This document shows positions 9,888 through 16,677 of a stretch of DNA of 64,000 nucleotides, piece by piece. The DNA is taken from contig NZ_FMUH01000003.1 of NCBI RefSeq assembly GCF_900101025.1, positions 310,001 through 374,000 on the forward strand, in the 5' to 3' direction. A model generated the notes under the pieces. That model was not told the origin of the DNA. It saw only the letters and a program-made list of their open reading frames with translations, and made no database searches. The translations under genes and the position numbers were made by a program. How positions within the stretch are numbered: the first letter of the stretch is position 1; the number at the start of each line of letters is the position of its first letter. Origin of the DNA: Klenkia marina. GTDB taxonomy: Bacteria > Actinomycetota > Actinomycetes > Mycobacteriales > Geodermatophilaceae.

Positions 9888-10673
9888 ATGGCCACCCCGC
9901 ACGCCCACGCGCAGCCCCACGACCACGGCTCAGACCACGGCTCAGACCACGGCTCAGACCACGGCTCCGAACACCAGCACCAGCACCAGCACGCACACCA
10001 GCACGGCGCCGAGCAGCCCAACGCCTGGCAGGAGACCGACCCCGCCCTCTGGTTCACCGAGGGGTTCTGGGACGACCGCTACCGCGAACGCCCGATCTGG
10101 TCCGGTGAGGTCAACCAGCGGCTGGCCGAGACCGCGGTCGAGCTGACCCCGGGCCGGGCGCTCGACGTCGGCTGCGGCGAGGGCGGCGACGCGATCTGGT
10201 TGGCCCGCCGGGGCTGGCAGGTCACCGCCTCCGACGTGTCGGCGGTGGCCCTCGAGCGGGCGCGCGCCGCGGCCGAGGCCGCCGGGGTGGCCGCAGCCAT
10301 CACGTGGGAGCAGGCCGACGGCCGCAGCGACTGGGCACCCCCGGCCGGGGCCTTCGACCTGGTGGCCGCCTCCTTCCTGCAGTTCCCGCGGCGCGAGCTC
10401 GTCGCCTTCCACCGCAAGCTGGCCGCCGCCGTCGCGCCGGGCGGCACCCTGCTCGTCACCGCCCACCACGCCGACAGCCACGGCGGCGAGAGCACCCCGT
10501 TCACCGCCGACCTGTTCGCCACGGCCGCCGAGATGGCCGCCGGGCTCGACCTCGACGACACCTGGACGGTCAGCGCCACCGACCCCACCCGCGAGGCCGT
10601 CTTCCCGCCCGGCCCCGACGGCCAGCGCATGACGGTCCGCGACGCGGTGCTGCGGGCGGTGCGCGGGCGCTGA
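9888..10673 (+). CDS. Class I SAM-dependent methyltransferase with His-rich N-terminus
   Basis: A 261-residue protein from ATG 9888; the frame is open back to GTG 9744, which would add 48 residues including AFDP repeats. Residues 1-35 are a His/Asp-rich tract with four H-G-S-D-type repeats and HQHQHQHAHQH, a plausible Zn, Ni or Cu-binding tail. The methyltransferase fold follows: ALDVGCGEGGDAIWLARRGW (motif I), then TASDVSAVALERA and AFDLVAASFLQFP. The arrangement resembles TehB/TPMT-like enzymes that methylate tellurite or thiols, which would suit a metal-binding tail, but the substrate is unproven. CAGGG lies about 9 bases before ATG 9888. It follows the HEPN gene without a clear terminator. 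Confidence 0.8.
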   Translation: MATPHAHAQPHDHGSDHGSDHGSDHGSEHQHQHQHAHQHGAEQPNAWQETDPALWFTEGFWDDRYRERPIWSGEVNQRLAETAVELTPGRALDVGCGEGGDAIWLARRGWQVTASDVSAVALERARAAAEAAGVAAAITWEQADGRSDWAPPAGAFDLVAASFLQFPRRELVAFHRKLAAAVAPGGTLLVTAHHADSHGGESTPFTADLFATAAEMAAGLDLDDTWTVSATDPTREAVFPPGPDGQRMTVRDAVLRAVRGR

Positions 10674-12669: not shown

Positions 12670-13028
12670 GCGCCGGTCCGGTCCTCACCGTCTGCCGCGG
12701 CTGCTGCTGCGGGCGAGCCGAGAAGCACCCCGAGCTCGACCACCGGGCCCAGCTCGAGGCGTTCCGGCGCGGGGGCGCGAAGGTCCGCGTGGTCGACTGC
12801 CTGGACGCCTGCGAACGGTCCAACGTCGTGGTGGTCAGCCCCACCCCCGAGGGGCGGAAGGCCGGGGCGCGCCCGCAGTGGCTGGGCGGCATCCTCGACG
12901 CCGAGCGCACCGCCGACGTCCTGCAGTGGGTGGCCGACGGCGGCCCCGGGGTCGCCGACCCGCCTGACTTCCTGGACCTGCAGTTCTTCAACCCGTCGCG
13001 CCGCGTGCGCAACGAGGCCGAGCTCTAG
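12666..13028 (+). CDS. Thioredoxin-fold [2Fe-2S] ferredoxin-like protein
   Basis: A 120-residue protein with LTVCRGCCCGRAEKHPEL near the N-terminus and RVVDCLDACERSNVVVVSP in the middle. The four-plus Cys arrangement is that of thioredoxin-like [2Fe-2S] ferredoxins, so an electron-transfer role is likely. The start GTG overlaps the phosphodiesterase stop. Its TAG stop shares the palindrome CTAG (13025-13028) with the TAG of the convergent sucrase/ferredoxin-like gene, which belongs to a related thioredoxin-like ferredoxin fold. Confidence 0.8.
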   Translation: MSAGPVLTVCRGCCCGRAEKHPELDHRAQLEAFRRGGAKVRVVDCLDACERSNVVVVSPTPEGRKAGARPQWLGGILDAERTADVLQWVADGGPGVADPPDFLDLQFFNPSRRVRNEAEL

Positions 13029-14020
13029 GAGCGCACCGAGACCGGGTGCCAGGTGCGGAAGCGCCCCGGACGCAGCGCGGCGCAGGTGAGCAGGCGGGGT
13101 TCGGCGGACAGCCGGCTGTCCAGCAGCACCTCGACCTCGCCGGCGGGTCCGGCCAGGGTCACCGCCCAGTGCTCGGTGCCGTCCTCGGCGCTGCCGCGCG
13201 ACGCGACGCCGGTCACCGGCAGGTCGGCCACGCCCAGCAGGCCGGTCTCGGCCCGGGCGAACTGCTGCGCCGCCTGCGCCGGCGGGGTCAGCCCGGCCCG
13301 GCCGCGCAGGCCCTCGAGCAGCACCTCGCCGCGGCGGTGCGCGTCGACCAGCCCGCCGCCGTCCTCGGGCACCTGCCCGTAGAGGTGGCCGGTGGGCAGC
13401 ACCAGCACGTTCGCGGCGAAGCGGTCACCACCGAGGTGGCTGGTCTCCCAGACGTCGCCGACCAGCGACCGGGCCAGCGGCCGGCCCCGGACCGCGCAGC
13501 ACGCGTCGTGCCCGCCGTGGGTGCACACCAGGAAGGTCGGGGCGTCGGACTGCACGCCGACCGACCCGTCGAGCGGGACGTCGAGCAGCTCGGCGTCGAC
13601 CGTCCGCGTCGACCACCGCACCCACGCCTCGCGGACGTCGGCCACGGCCCACCGTCCGCCGGCGTCGGCCAACCGCTCACCGGGCCGGCGCACCATCTGG
13701 ATCCGCAGCCCGGCCTCGCGGGCGCGCTGGGCCAGCAGCGGCGCGACGACCGCGTCGAAGCGGGACTGCAGCAGCGCATCGCGCCCCCAGGGCCCGGGCT
13801 GCTCCACCAGGAGCCAGCGCCGGGCCGGCGGGGCGGTCGCGACGGGTGAGTCGCCGGCGGCCAGTGCCCGCACCGAGCACCGCCCCTCGTCCAACCGGCC
13901 GACCGGACGGCTGCGGGACGAGGGGGGCGGGGCGGTGTCGGGGTGCTGGCAGTACGGGTCCTCGGGCGCCGGGTCAGGCACCGTGCCCGGGGACCTGCCC
14001 GCTGGCCCGTCGATGCTCAT
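13025..14020 (-). CDS. Sucrase/ferredoxin-like family protein
   Basis: A 331-residue protein of the Suc_Fer-like family (thioredoxin-like [2Fe-2S] ferredoxin domain): RRWLLVEQPGPWGRDALLQS near residue 65, FLVCTHGGHDACCAVRGRPL in the middle with clustered Cys/His residues, and DRFAANVLVLPTGHLYGQV later. A redox role is likely; the family name comes from homology and does not imply sucrase activity. ATG 14020 was chosen (GGGG 4-8 bases upstream); ATG 14029 and GTG 13981 are alternatives. It overlaps the end of the cupin gene by 47 bases, so the two are expressed together. Confidence 0.82.
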   Translation of the reverse strand: MSIDGPAGRSPGTVPDPAPEDPYCQHPDTAPPPSSRSRPVGRLDEGRCSVRALAAGDSPVATAPPARRWLLVEQPGPWGRDALLQSRFDAVVAPLLAQRAREAGLRIQMVRRPGERLADAGGRWAVADVREAWVRWSTRTVDAELLDVPLDGSVGVQSDAPTFLVCTHGGHDACCAVRGRPLARSLVGDVWETSHLGGDRFAANVLVLPTGHLYGQVPEDGGGLVDAHRRGEVLLEGLRGRAGLTPPAQAAQQFARAETGLLGVADLPVTGVASRGSAEDGTEHWAVTLAGPAGEVEVLLDSRLSAEPRLLTCAALRPGRFRTWHPVSVRS

Positions 14021-15248
14021 CGGCCCCATGGTGCGCGGCGTCCGGGACCACCGCCACCGACTCCACCAGGAGCCGGCGGGCGAGGGACTGCTGGTCCTCG
14101 GCGGACAGCCCCGGCAGGTCGGCCACCTTCAGCTCACCGACCGACAGCAGCTCGGCCAGGGCCGGGCGCTGGGCAGCCGGGAACCGGCGGTGCTGCCGGC
14201 CCGTGATCAGTACGACCTCGGCGTCCGGGGACTCGCCCTGGGCGTCGCGCAGCTGCACGCGCAGACGGGGACGCAGCCGCAGCACGGTGTCGGCGGTGAG
14301 CGCGGCGGCCGCGGTGGACTGGGCCAGCGGCGCGACGGGCTCGGGGCGCACCTGCGCCCACGTGCGCGAGCGCAGCCGGTCGGCCACCTCGGCCGGGTCG
14401 ACCCGGTCCAGCGCGGCGTGCAGTCCGGCGAGCACCGCGGCGACGTCGTCGGCCGTGGTGCCGGGGGCCGACAGGTCGGCGCCCAGCGGGAGCGAGGCAC
14501 GCAGCGCGGGGTCGTCGGTGGCCAGCGTGCGCACGAGGTCGAGCGCGGACTCGACCGCACCCCACCGGGTCACGCTGTGCACACCGATGGTCAGGTGCGC
14601 GCTGATCTCACCGAGTGCCACGGCCGAGTGCAGGTAACCGCGCGGCAGGTAGAGCGCGTCACCGGGCCGGAGCACGGCGTCGATGACCGGTTCCTCCTGC
14701 GCCCGCGCGGCCACGGCGTCGGCGCGCTCGCCCCAGGGCTGGGTGCGCAGCGGGTCGGTGAGCACCGGCTCGTGGATGGTCCAGTGCTTCTCGCCGGCGA
14801 CCTGGAGCACGAACACGTCGTGCACGTCGTAGTGCGGGGAGAAGCCCTGCGAGGAGGGCGGGGTGACGTAGGCGTTGACCTGGGTGGGGTGGCCGAGGTC
14901 GGCGGCGAGCTGGTCGGCGAAGGCGATCAGCGGCGGCCAGAGCCGGTGCAGGCCCTGCAGCACGACGGTGGAGCCCTCGCTGAACAGCCGCAGCACCGAG
15001 TCCGAGGAGACCTGGTCGGCCACCTCGGCGCCGGCCCCGCCGGAGCCGGTGAAGCGCTTGGGGTCGACCACCTCGCCGTTGCGGGCGATGCGGAGGAAGG
15101 GGGTGCGCAGGCCGCGGACGCTCAGCAGCTCGTCGACGTCGGCCAGCGTCAGCAGGTCGGAGAAGTCACGACCCAGCTCCGCAGCGCTGGTCAGGAGGGG
15201 GCGGCGCGACCAGTGCTGCTCGGCGAAGACCTGCGGGTCGACGCCCAC
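13974..15248 (-). CDS. JmjC/cupin domain Fe(II) oxygenase, RoxA/NO66-like
   Basis: A 424-residue protein (from GTG 15248) with a cupin/JmjC core. PHYDVHDVFVLQVAGEKHW gives the His139-x-Asp141 iron ligands and YLPRGYLHSAVAL the distal His207, the complete facial triad of 2-oxoglutarate-dependent hydroxylases. Relatives hydroxylate Arg or His in ribosomal proteins. The start is uncertain: similarity to the family seems to begin a few residues before GTG 15248 (PALRRCV), but no ATG/GTG/TTG exists between there and the preceding stop; a CTG at 15314 overlapping that stop is a speculative alternative. It lies just after a three-repeat acidic peptide gene and a perfect hairpin, and overlaps the sucrase/ferredoxin-like gene. 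Confidence 0.82.
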   Translation of the reverse strand: MGVDPQVFAEQHWSRRPLLTSAAELGRDFSDLLTLADVDELLSVRGLRTPFLRIARNGEVVDPKRFTGSGGAGAEVADQVSSDSVLRLFSEGSTVVLQGLHRLWPPLIAFADQLAADLGHPTQVNAYVTPPSSQGFSPHYDVHDVFVLQVAGEKHWTIHEPVLTDPLRTQPWGERADAVAARAQEEPVIDAVLRPGDALYLPRGYLHSAVALGEISAHLTIGVHSVTRWGAVESALDLVRTLATDDPALRASLPLGADLSAPGTTADDVAAVLAGLHAALDRVDPAEVADRLRSRTWAQVRPEPVAPLAQSTAAAALTADTVLRLRPRLRVQLRDAQGESPDAEVVLITGRQHRRFPAAQRPALAELLSVGELKVADLPGLSAEDQQSLARRLLVESVAVVPDAAHHGADEHRRASGQVPGHGA

Positions 15249-15255
15249 GCAGCGC

Positions 15256-15295
15256 CGCAGGGCCGGGCGGAGAGTGCTCTCCGCCCGGCCCTGCG
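15256..15295 (-). terminator. Perfect GC hairpin between repeat peptide and cupin genes
   Basis: A 19-bp perfect inverted repeat (15256-15274 with 15277-15295) around two bases, starting 15 bases after the stop of the repeat peptide gene on the minus strand. No T-run follows. It may be an intrinsic terminator or attenuator lowering expression of the cupin gene relative to the peptide gene. Confidence 0.7.
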
Positions 15296-15310
15296 AGGTC
15301 GGGTTCGCGC

Positions 15311-15562
15311 TCAGGCGGAACCGTCCGCGCCGCCGTCGTGCTGGCCCGGGGTGCCGCCGCCGGCGCCGCTGTCCGCGGGGCCCTCGGCGCCGCCGTCGGC
15401 ACCGCCGTCGTGCTGGCCGGGGGTACCGGCACCGGCGCCGCTGTCCGCGGGGCCCTCGGCGCCGCCGTCGGCACCGCCGTCGTGCTGGCCCGGGGTGCCC
15501 TCGCCGGCACCGCTGTCGGCGGGACCCTCGGTGCTGGTCATGTCGTCGTCGTCGAACGCCAC
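15311..15562 (-). CDS. Small acidic protein of three 24-residue repeats
   Basis: An 83-residue protein made of an 11-residue leader (VAFDDDDMTST) and three consecutive 24-residue units. Each unit starts EGPADSGAG, has one variable residue (E, A or G), then GTPGQHDGGADG; only that position and one G/S near the end change. It has no Cys, Lys, Arg or aromatic residue beyond Phe3, and one His per unit. The GTG start at 15562 is supported by GGAGGA 3 bases upstream; ATG 15541 is the alternative. It precedes a perfect hairpin and the JmjC oxygenase gene on the same strand. Function is not known; a substrate or precursor peptide for the oxygenase is a hypothesis. A disordered acidic protein is the simpler reading. 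Confidence 0.75.
   Translation of the reverse strand: MAFDDDDMTSTEGPADSGAGEGTPGQHDGGADGGAEGPADSGAGAGTPGQHDGGADGGAEGPADSGAGGGTPGQHDGGADGSA
15314..15529 (-). repeat. Three tandem 72-bp coding repeats
   Basis: Three in-frame 72-bp copies, nearly identical at DNA level, fill residues 12-83 of the small acidic protein and end exactly at its stop. The period is clear from GTCCGCGGGG at 15371 and 15443. Such DNA identity suggests recent expansion by slippage or recombination. Confidence 0.88.
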
Positions 15563-15708
15563 GGTTCCTCCATCGGACTCGTCCTGCGACCGCCGGTCGG
15601 CGGTCCCGGGGGAGCTGTACCGCGATGATCGTCGGACTACACATGCCGTCCGCGACCATCGGCGCCCGCCGGATTCGAACCCCTCCGGCCCGGGGTAGCG
15701 GGCGTCGC

Positions 15709-16677
15709 GTGGAACAGTCCGCACGGTGGTCCGACGAGGTCGCCCGCACCGCCGCCGCCTTCTCCGTCCTGCTCGACGGCGGCTGGTCCCCGCCGCTCCC
15801 CGGCGGCGGGTCGACCGCCGCCCGCTGGTCCGCGCTGGCCGAGCTCGGCGCCCGCGACCTGCCGCTGGCCCGGCTCGCCGAGGGCCACGCCGACGCCGTG
15901 GCGGTGCTCGCCGAGCTCGACGGGCCCGAGCCCGGGCCGGGCGCGCGGCTCGGGGTCTGGGCCGCCGAGCCCCCGACCGGGCGGGTCGCGGCCCGCCGGG
16001 TCGACGGGGGCTGGGTGCTGACCGGCACCAAGCAGTGGTGCTCGGGTGCCCGGGCCTGCACCGGCGCCCTGGTGACCGCGCACGCCGACGACGGCCGCCG
16101 GATCTTCCTGGTCGACCTCGCCGCGCCCGGGGTGTCCCCGCGCCCCGGCAGCTGGGCCGCCCCCGGCATGGCCGGCAGCGACACCGTGGACGTCGAGCTG
16201 CGCGACGTGCCGGCGCAGGCCGTGGGCGGGCCGCGGGCCTACCTGGACCGCCCGGGCTTCTGGCACGGCGGCATCGGGGTGGCCGCGGTCTGGGCCGGTG
16301 GCGCCCGGGGGGTCGCCGCGGCGCTCGCCGGCGTGGTGGCCGCGGGACCCGACCCGCACCGGGACGCCGCCTGGGGCTCGGTCGACGTGGCGCTGCACGC
16401 GCTGGACGCCGCGCTCGCGGTCGCCGCCGCCGAGGTCGACGCCGACCCGCACGACGACGCGGGGACGGCGGCCGGGCGCGCCCACCGGGTGCGCGGGCTG
16501 GCCGCCCGCACCGGCCTCGAGGTGCTGGCGACCGTCGGCCGGGCGCTGGGGGCCGGCCCGGCCGCGCACGACGGCGCCCACGCGGCCCGCTGCGCCGACC
16601 TGGAGGTGTACCTGCGCCAGCACCACGGCGACCGCGACCTCGCCGCGCTGGCCGACGACCTGCGGGCCCGCCGGTGA
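15709..16677 (+). CDS. Acyl-CoA dehydrogenase family protein
   Basis: A 322-residue protein with an acyl-CoA dehydrogenase-like layout: an N-terminal helical part, a central FAD-contacting beta part around WVLTGTKQWCSGARACTGAL, and a C-terminal helical part ending YLRQHHGDRDLAALADDL. It is shorter than typical enzymes (about 380 residues) and I cannot identify the catalytic Glu, so oxidase or non-classical activity is possible. GTG 15709 begins the conserved part. It is divergent from the repeat peptide gene and couples (GTGA at 16674) to the PIG-L gene. Four genes, 15709-18699, overlap successively and must act together. Confidence 0.78.
   Translation: MEQSARWSDEVARTAAAFSVLLDGGWSPPLPGGGSTAARWSALAELGARDLPLARLAEGHADAVAVLAELDGPEPGPGARLGVWAAEPPTGRVAARRVDGGWVLTGTKQWCSGARACTGALVTAHADDGRRIFLVDLAAPGVSPRPGSWAAPGMAGSDTVDVELRDVPAQAVGGPRAYLDRPGFWHGGIGVAAVWAGGARGVAAALAGVVAAGPDPHRDAAWGSVDVALHALDAALAVAAAEVDADPHDDAGTAAGRAHRVRGLAARTGLEVLATVGRALGAGPAAHDGAHAARCADLEVYLRQHHGDRDLAALADDLRARR

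Follow-up and report, generated by a model that had tools for sequence, protein, structure and literature searches.

What does an oxygenase modify when its gene directly follows one for a short, strongly repetitive acidic peptide? The question is raised by a 64,000-nucleotide (nt) stretch of the Klenkia marina genome (contig NZ_FMUH01000003.1, positions 310,001 to 374,000; hereafter the window, in whose own numbering all positions are given), where three genes follow in succession on the minus strand, encoding a peptide of 83 amino acids (aa), a JmjC_2 oxygenase and a Suc_Fer-like protein. A sequence-only reading of this DNA had proposed peptide and oxygenase as a precursor/enzyme pair, in an order common in clusters for ribosomally synthesised and post-translationally modified peptides (RiPPs). 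We find that the peptide gene and the oxygenase gene travel together across very many actinobacteria, and we consider it very probable that the 83-aa peptide is the substrate of the adjacent oxygenase. The features that bear on this are:

15311 to 15562, minus strand: Asp/Gly/Ala repeat peptide gene, putative precursor, 83 aa, GTG start, stop TGA at 15311 to 15313 (from sequence, selection and orthologues)
15530 to 15562, minus strand: leader-like N-terminus MAFDDDDMTST (VAFDDDDMTST with the GTG read literally), motif D-D-D-[IM]-x-[TS] (from the leader pattern in relatives)
15458 to 15529, minus strand: repeat unit 1, EGPADSGAGEGTPGQHDGGADGGA, six tetrads (from translation and codon comparison)
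15386 to 15457, minus strand: repeat unit 2, EGPADSGAGAGTPGQHDGGADGGA (same basis)
15314 to 15385, minus strand: repeat unit 3, EGPADSGAGGGTPGQHDGGADGSA (same basis)
13974 to 15314, minus strand: JmjC_2 (PF08007) oxygenase, start uncertain, CTG 15314 preferred over CTG 15260 or GTG 15248 (from Pfam and relatives)
14826 to 14834, minus strand: H140-Y-D142 of the Fe(II) triad, third ligand H208 at 14628 to 14630, numbered from the Cys codon at 15251
14040 to 14318, minus strand: C-terminal winged-helix domain with the fold of RiPP recognition elements (RREs) (from model m79e79502133d and fold comparison)

An oxygenase match was present in 46 of 60 relatives, and at every one of the 30 loci read, those of 29 relatives and of the window itself, the peptide gene lies immediately upstream of the oxygenase. 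At 17 of 18 further loci (L049 was left out) a first pattern, blind to peptides of the SNPEGHDGGADGTA type, found the peptide in ten, a contig end in four and nothing in three; of these three, the L043 genome has the peptide (L152), and L046 and L047 have different Asp-repeat peptides. A profile scan of genomes, biased toward close relatives because only the best 80 of 562 loci were kept, had two Klenkia as its nearest named relatives (86–87% identity), and these 80 loci span at least ten families: Geodermatophilaceae, Pseudonocardiaceae, Micromonosporaceae, Kribbellaceae, Motilibacteraceae, Frankiaceae, Jatrophihabitantaceae, Cellulomonadaceae, Microbacteriaceae and Dermacoccaceae. The peptide is directly upstream of the oxygenase in 76 of them, and in the remaining four the contig holds only 4, 53, 76 and 132 nt upstream. 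Across 394 genomes of the class, 132 have an oxygenase match, 58 have one of at least 350 bits and 262 have none; the peptide is present in 56 of the 58 (57 fetched loci and the window). The 12 loci read from the 74 genomes with weaker matches gave no DGGA-type peptide, the one string flagged, in L201, being 819 nt away and non-repetitive. The pairing also holds in reverse, though in one direction only because the DGGADGGA pattern used is blind to DGGADGSA and DGGADGTA forms: by hand count, 33 of the 34 class genomes with at least three same-strand matches to it have a strong JmjC match. In the exception (G279) the pattern matches are split over two contigs, and the backward control pattern reaches three matches in one genome (G063). 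A plasmid collection gave 137 matching records, all below 60% identity. Within the close oxygenase family the proposed pairing therefore stood: an oxygenase commonly standing without the repeat gene did not occur, and the repeats are conserved between species.

Is the peptide a real gene product? Translation gave what the sequence-only reading had described, an 11-residue MAFDDDDMTST followed by three 24-residue units with one His each. The 24-mer divides into six tetrads (EGPA DSGA GEGT PGQH DGGA DGGA), so that on the translation the basic unit of the repeats is the tetrad (D/E)(G/S)(G/P)A; Tandem Repeats Finder also reported periods of 12 and 36 nt in the gene. Each pair of units in the window differs by six synonymous and one or two non-synonymous codons, and since these differences are mostly synonymous the repeat appears to be maintained at the protein level. 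Other genera encode their repeats with mixed synonymous codons. The ratio of non-synonymous to synonymous change (pN/pS) between equal-length peptides from different loci, with no identity filter, has a median of 0.33 (10–90% range 0.07–0.40) and is below one in 201 of 201 pairs. Filtered sets gave lower values, 0.04–0.24 for 19 orthologue pairs filtered for 75% identity and 0.058 between adjacent tetrads, the latter biased low because the comparison was limited to D..A tetrads. A chance repeat, or one kept at the DNA level only, is ruled out by the synonymous bias between units together with pN/pS below one. By these codon comparisons the 83-aa peptide is a genuine gene under purifying selection. 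Searched against Pfam and NCBIfam it matched no meaningful family, the best hits being low-complexity surface adhesins (E 0.042 at best).

What is constant among the peptides? Of 138 loci, 132 had a DGG-bearing open reading frame (ORF); 130 of these could be used, giving 124 distinct peptides, a few with doubtful start choices. Ala occurs in all 124, and Cys, Trp, Tyr, Phe and Lys are each missing from at least 112. As the sequence-only reading had predicted, unit number varies (zero to six [EH]GxAD motifs per peptide); its suggestion of GQHDGG as a fixed core did not survive, the residue ahead of DGGADG being A 209 times, H 185, S 48, Q 45, G 39 and T 18. A broad leader pattern, defined after the peptides were seen, matches 101 of the 124, and similar leaders recur in 11 peptides with other repeat types, chosen by hand. 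The Asp spacing is four residues in 129 DGGA-type peptides; the 11 others show lags of 2, 3 and 5. Because Asp is constant across peptide types, it is the best candidate target. In one peptide (L095) the DGGA array is broken by a dissimilar stretch, GLIDKVRDKVRDVIGGDK.

The association extends beyond the DGGA type. Loci without a DGGA peptide carry other acidic ORFs in its place, with DADADST or DGDATDG repeats, DPAGxDPAG, or 35–38 aa ending SDGTDSSSDFI. In other classes of the phylum we read 20 loci, taken from 19 of 29 genomes; 18 of them, all except L227 and L238, have an acidic upstream ORF. Most of these ORFs are of the DGDAT or DADAS type, and a leader such as LTDDDIET is visible in seven. 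We also chose ORFs by net acidity alone, as a short ORF ending no more than 260 nt upstream, and found one at 83 of 90 JmjC loci compared to 1 of 360 control stretches; a locus having 157 nt of upstream sequence was excluded, and the positives at L200, L202–L204 and L209 are short ORFs of 30–38 aa. By bit score the pick succeeded at 59 of 59 loci with at least 350 bits, 7 of 8 at 260–350 and 17 of 23 at or below 260, in groups that mix two profiles and in which L046 and L047 were assigned a nominal 250. Asp exceeds Glu in all 83 ORFs picked for acidity, and a threshold of 12% Asp, chosen afterwards, gave 83 of 90 loci against 0 of 360 controls. On a quick tree of 54 rows with several long branches, the DGGA label needs two changes (shuffled mean 13.9).

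Some of these ORFs are of note in themselves. Upstream of the weak JmjC matches of L202, L203 and L204 lie near-alike ORFs of 35–38 aa, of type MDPIEVEVEDLGEVTSRDVTAGGDSDGTDSSSDFI, which resemble short RiPP precursors; one of them was scanned and had no NCBIfam match. L200 has a 37-aa Cys/Asp peptide, MDEIQVETAPAADPQFLICDPDPSDDCWIVCNPNYCY, upstream of a PF08007 oxygenase, again with no NCBIfam match. At L192 and L194 the ORF in the peptide's place ends GPT(V/I)EPGA and may offer a natural test of what the enzyme requires.

The oxygenase, whose gene ends at 13974, matches PF08007 at E 6.6e-28 (97.2 bits against a cut-off of 22) and Cupin_8 at E 1.8e-9. The complete iron triad noticed in the sequence-only reading is borne out: H140, D142 and H208 are invariant in 72 aligned sequences, as is K155, which we take to be the 2-oxoglutarate-binding lysine, and the iron ligands align with those of NO66. 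A structure model built on the 72-sequence alignment has a mean predicted local confidence (pLDDT) of 94.7, and the nearest solved chains by both profile and fold are NO66, MINA53, YcfD and YxbC. The C-terminal domain, modelled separately (pLDDT 89.9), consists of four strands and then two long helices with a three-residue helical turn between them. Its top fold matches are MINA53 (Z-score 12.0, root-mean-square deviation (rmsd) 2.2, 86 residues aligned) and NO66 (Z 10.6, residues 312–404), and it matches RREs such as PqqD (Z 8.0, rmsd 2.5, 83 aligned), the TbiB1–leader complex (Z 7.0, rmsd 2.7, 73 aligned) and PbtF (Z 6.5), also ThcOx, TigE, MccB, McbB, LynD and TruD. A Pfam scan of this domain found no consistent family, with one weak RIOX1_C_WH match among 62 members. 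As modelled, the oxygenase is of the ribosomal-oxygenase type with a C-terminal RRE-like domain.

A small gene with leader-like and core-like parts beside a putative modifying enzyme suggests, at the level of gene content, a pair that is RiPP-like in logic. On balance we favour an oxygenase that is guided by the leader and modifies, most likely by hydroxylation, Asp residues along a dedicated adjacent repeat peptide; of the residues on offer, Asp seems to us somewhat the likeliest to be modified. The enzyme would have two parts, an Fe(II)/2-oxoglutarate-dependent JmjC domain and the RRE-like winged helix, the latter probably binding the short acidic leader (DDDDMTST) while the catalytic domain proceeds along the repeats and, most probably, adds hydroxyl groups to the C-3 of Asp side chains at a number of sites. 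What results would be an acidic peptide with multiple hydroxylations that stays inside the cell and perhaps serves as a metal ligand. Such a role fits the acidity and the Asp spacing, and as to biological function a metal-binding peptide is our guess.

Several points weigh against this proposal. The two loci lacking the peptide among the 58 strong matches, L192 and L194, belong to one genus, score 447 and 442 bits and have an acidic but non-repetitive ORF in the peptide's place, and in the acidity test no acidic ORF was in reach at 6 of 23 distant and 1 of 8 intermediate loci. Asp and Gly are universal in the 124 DGGA-type peptides by construction, because these were found via the string DGG, and the constancy of Asp could reflect acidity or metal binding rather than a target. 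The nearest characterised relatives hydroxylate His (NO66, MINA53) or Arg (YcfD) rather than Asp. All three also carry an RRE-like winged helix, and the published excerpts mention no leader for any of them. Non-RiPP chains rank among the RRE matches of the C-terminal domain (Rv2067c, Z 8.2; GdmN, Z 7.1), and Z-scores below 8 can reflect a common arrangement.

The sequence-only reading had drawn attention to the single His of each unit (GQHDGG), and hydroxylation there, as by NO66 and MINA53, would leave the peptide a substrate. The closest solved structures are histidyl hydroxylases (PMC4543633, in part), each window unit offers one His and H is common ahead of DGGADG (185 times in the 124 peptides). 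However, 15 of the 124 peptides have no His at all, Q, S or T often taking its place, and it is also absent from 8 of the 11 hand-picked peptides of other repeat types, from 11 of 59 acidic ORFs at strong oxygenases and from 19 of 24 at weaker ones; His as the target thus seems unlikely. Another chemistry on the same substrate, such as a cross-link, desaturation or backbone oxidation, with hydroxylation as its first step or not involved, has a parallel in a 2025 title on 2-oxoglutarate-dependent RiPP macrocyclisation (in the reference list of PMC12710340). We hold it to be quite improbable, since the characterised members nearest in fold hydroxylate and since the scarcity of Cys, Lys, Tyr, Trp and Phe noted above leaves at least 112 of 124 peptides without any given one of them.

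The remaining alternatives deny that the peptide is modified. It could be a small acidic partner of the oxygenase, an activator or a metal-delivery protein, being acidic and adjoining the enzyme with no lineage-shared protease or exporter among the neighbour clusters viewed; the variable repeat number, the change of repeat type under recurring leaders and the RRE-like domain argue instead for a substrate, and we rate the partner role as very improbable. That a housekeeping ribosomal oxygenase merely sits beside an unrelated disordered protein would suit PF08007, which includes the E. coli L16 arginine hydroxylase, and the fold match to YcfD. It is strongly disfavoured by linkage and co-occurrence, and the lack of any match in 262 of 394 class genomes would be unexpected for a ribosome-linked housekeeping enzyme, so that we give it hardly any credence.

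How might the two genes be expressed together? Three further features of the locus are relevant:

15565 to 15571, minus strand: ribosome-binding-site-like GGAGGAA ahead of the GTG start of the peptide gene (sequence, by eye)
15256 to 15295, minus strand: perfect 19-bp hairpin with a 2-nt loop, between the peptide stop and the conserved Cys codon of the oxygenase (folding, recurrence and covariation)
13025 to 14029, minus strand: Suc_Fer-like (PF06999) protein, overlapping the oxygenase end, a frequent third gene of the cassette (PF06999 E 1.7e-15)

The oxygenase frame contains no ATG, GTG or TTG between the peptide stop and the conserved Cys codon (15251). Its candidate starts are the CTG that overlaps the stop, the second CTG and the GTG directly after the Cys codon. 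An overlap between the peptide stop and an NTG in the oxygenase frame occurs at 79 of 132 loci (CTGA 60, GTGA 8, TTGA 7, ATGA 4), and this register is favoured (81 of 132 loci are in that frame). The CTGA overlap is weak evidence for a CTG start because it arises largely automatically once the last codon ends in C, the stop is TGA and the frame is given; we argue for a start at the peptide stop from the 19 non-CTGA overlaps and from RPALRR, which relatives keep in frame ahead of the Cys. This in-frame conservation means that the hairpin may lie inside the 5′ coding end of the oxygenase gene.

The 19-bp perfect hairpin after the peptide gene was correctly read from the sequence. Its arms (15256–15274 and 15277–15295) fold with a minimum free energy of −50.2 kcal/mol (z −5.3), which none of 200 shuffles equals. 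Of 127 loci, 73 have a perfect stem of at least 9 bp in the interval from the peptide stop to the Cys codon (35 of the 43 in Geodermatophilaceae and 38 of the 84 elsewhere); among control stretches taken from within the oxygenase gene, 46 of 2540 have one. Among 19 Geodermatophilaceae sequences (from 22 of equal length) five of the 19 pairs have changed in both partners; five or more do so in 8 of 500 shuffles, and no shuffle attains the covariation score, in a kind of test that kinship inflates. Being recurrent and covarying, the hairpin looks selected. The minus strand has no T run after it, as an intrinsic terminator or attenuator would require; actinobacterial terminators without a T run exist. 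As an Rfam family it was rejected, one microRNA model matching at 25.8 bits against a gathering score of 70. Together with the gene overlap or close spacing, the hairpin probably tunes and fixes the ratio of peptide to enzyme.

The sucrase/ferredoxin-like redox protein that had been recognised next in line is supported by its PF06999 match. Suc_Fer lies downstream of the oxygenase at 114 of 135 loci. Among the 21 that lack it, L064 has 71 nt downstream, ten have about 5 kb (Micromonosporaceae included) and ten have 1–1.5 kb. It would be a frequent, dispensable partner, perhaps one that maintains reduced iron. We clustered the neighbours of 40 loci (ORFs of at least 90 aa within 5 kb, E 1e-12) and viewed the 16 largest clusters. 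Those spanning lineages were JmjC (40 of 40 loci), Suc_Fer (29 of 40) and antisense shadows; the others held 6–7 loci each, from one group. No lineage-spanning protease, exporter or second modifying enzyme was among these 16 clusters, lineage-specific neighbours having lain outside the search. The RiPP-like logic of the sequence-only reading gained the RRE fold of the C-terminal domain; a secreted product is not indicated, no protease or exporter being shared across lineages within 5 kb in the clusters viewed. A defence system was considered and rejected, as none of the three proteins has a PADLOC match.

Upstream of the peptide gene, patterns for SigR, SigE, IdeR, Zur and CRP were not above shuffles and were set aside. 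A LexA-like GAAC-N3..5-GTTC occurs in 23 of 130 upstream stretches (0.9 in shuffles), at loci L064–L099 (Geodermatophilaceae) and mostly 190–210 nt upstream of the peptide. These sites are probably the SOS box of DNA polymerase IV, because in these genera its gene lies divergently upstream. In the window the polymerase IV gene is farther from the peptide than there. The divergent gene at 15709–16677 (plus strand) looks by eye like an acyl-CoA dehydrogenase, and the product of 9888–10673 (plus strand) has a His/Asp-rich head, MATPHAHAQPHDHGSDHGSDHGSDHGSEHQHQHQHAHQHG, and a later part that by eye resembles a methyltransferase.

How does the pair compare with known systems? Our literature search found no paper on the peptide motifs or on the peptide/oxygenase pair, and distant oxygenase relatives are annotated merely as 'cupin domain-containing protein'. 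Iyer et al. 2010, on peptide-modifying dioxygenases, reportedly discusses enzymes of the jumonji type that neighbour peptides and glycine-rich proteins in bacteria, and may touch the present family. The gene pair is widespread in actinobacteria, yet the peptide has no meaningful Pfam or NCBIfam family. If our proposal is true, it defines a substrate for a JmjC subfamily and a one-enzyme route to repeated Asp hydroxylation.

PesHI is a multinuclear iron enzyme. The presence of 3-hydroxyaspartate in ribosomal peptides is established through PesHI and SmaO (PMC13060819, PMC13097080), though in the excerpts of these papers a JmjC–RRE enzyme acting on Asp repeats is described for neither, and SmaO belongs to a graspetide cluster and has an N-terminal site. 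Nearer in enzyme type are BipG (a JmjC hydroxylase) and PbsQ (cupin-like) of biphenomycin-type RiPPs, where JmjC-type side-chain hydroxylation of a ribosomal precursor is reported in passages of PMC12707348 and PMC12257519; there the target is ornithine in a multi-enzyme pathway, whereas the present enzyme sits with a many-fold repeated acidic peptide. CorC of corallotide is likewise a 2-oxoglutarate oxygenase hydroxylating repeated motifs of a long precursor, but one of PF13640 that acts on the Lys delta-carbon after macrocyclisation (PMC13097080, in part). FIH acts on ankyrin repeats, where its hydroxylation targets are Asn and, in addition, Asp and His (according to the relevant section of PMC4543633); it is eukaryotic, with ankyrin-repeat substrates, and matches our oxygenase weakly in fold (Foldseek E 1.3e-8).

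RRE-dependent RiPP pathways share with the pair the leader-plus-core-like precursor, the adjoining enzyme and the RRE fold, and differ in the lineage-shared protease, exporter and second modifying enzyme, none of which we saw here. Bregman et al. 2025 (PMC12710340) independently describe RRE-like folds fused to PF08007 in fish and in algae and place bacterial homologues in 'RiPP-like genomic contexts'; the passages concerned do not mention a precursor family, Asp repeats or a pairing in actinobacteria. More speculatively, every RRE-fused JmjC oxygenase, phylum-wide, might have its own Asp-repeat peptide and write regularly spaced 3-hydroxyaspartate into it (every four residues here, at lags of 2, 3 and 5 elsewhere), yielding encoded poly-hydroxyaspartyl metal ligands within the cell, the winged-helix tail of the eukaryotic enzymes NO66 and MINA53 being a relic of a leader-binding domain inherited from ancestors that modified such peptides; in this breadth we regard the idea as doubtful. 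NO66, MINA53 and YcfD (PF08007) resemble the oxygenase in domain order, Fe triad and C-terminal winged helix (for NO66, profile E 1.9e-35 and Foldseek E 1.5e-26), although its invariant stretch R49, P51, F52, G72, G74, A75, D79 and Q80 is not conserved in the NO66 alignment. Unlike these enzymes, it is encoded beside its own repeat peptide, a linkage that appears to point away from a ribosomal substrate, and if the proposal holds the pair would tie peptide-modifying enzymes of bacteria to the human ribosomal oxygenases in a way that can be tested.

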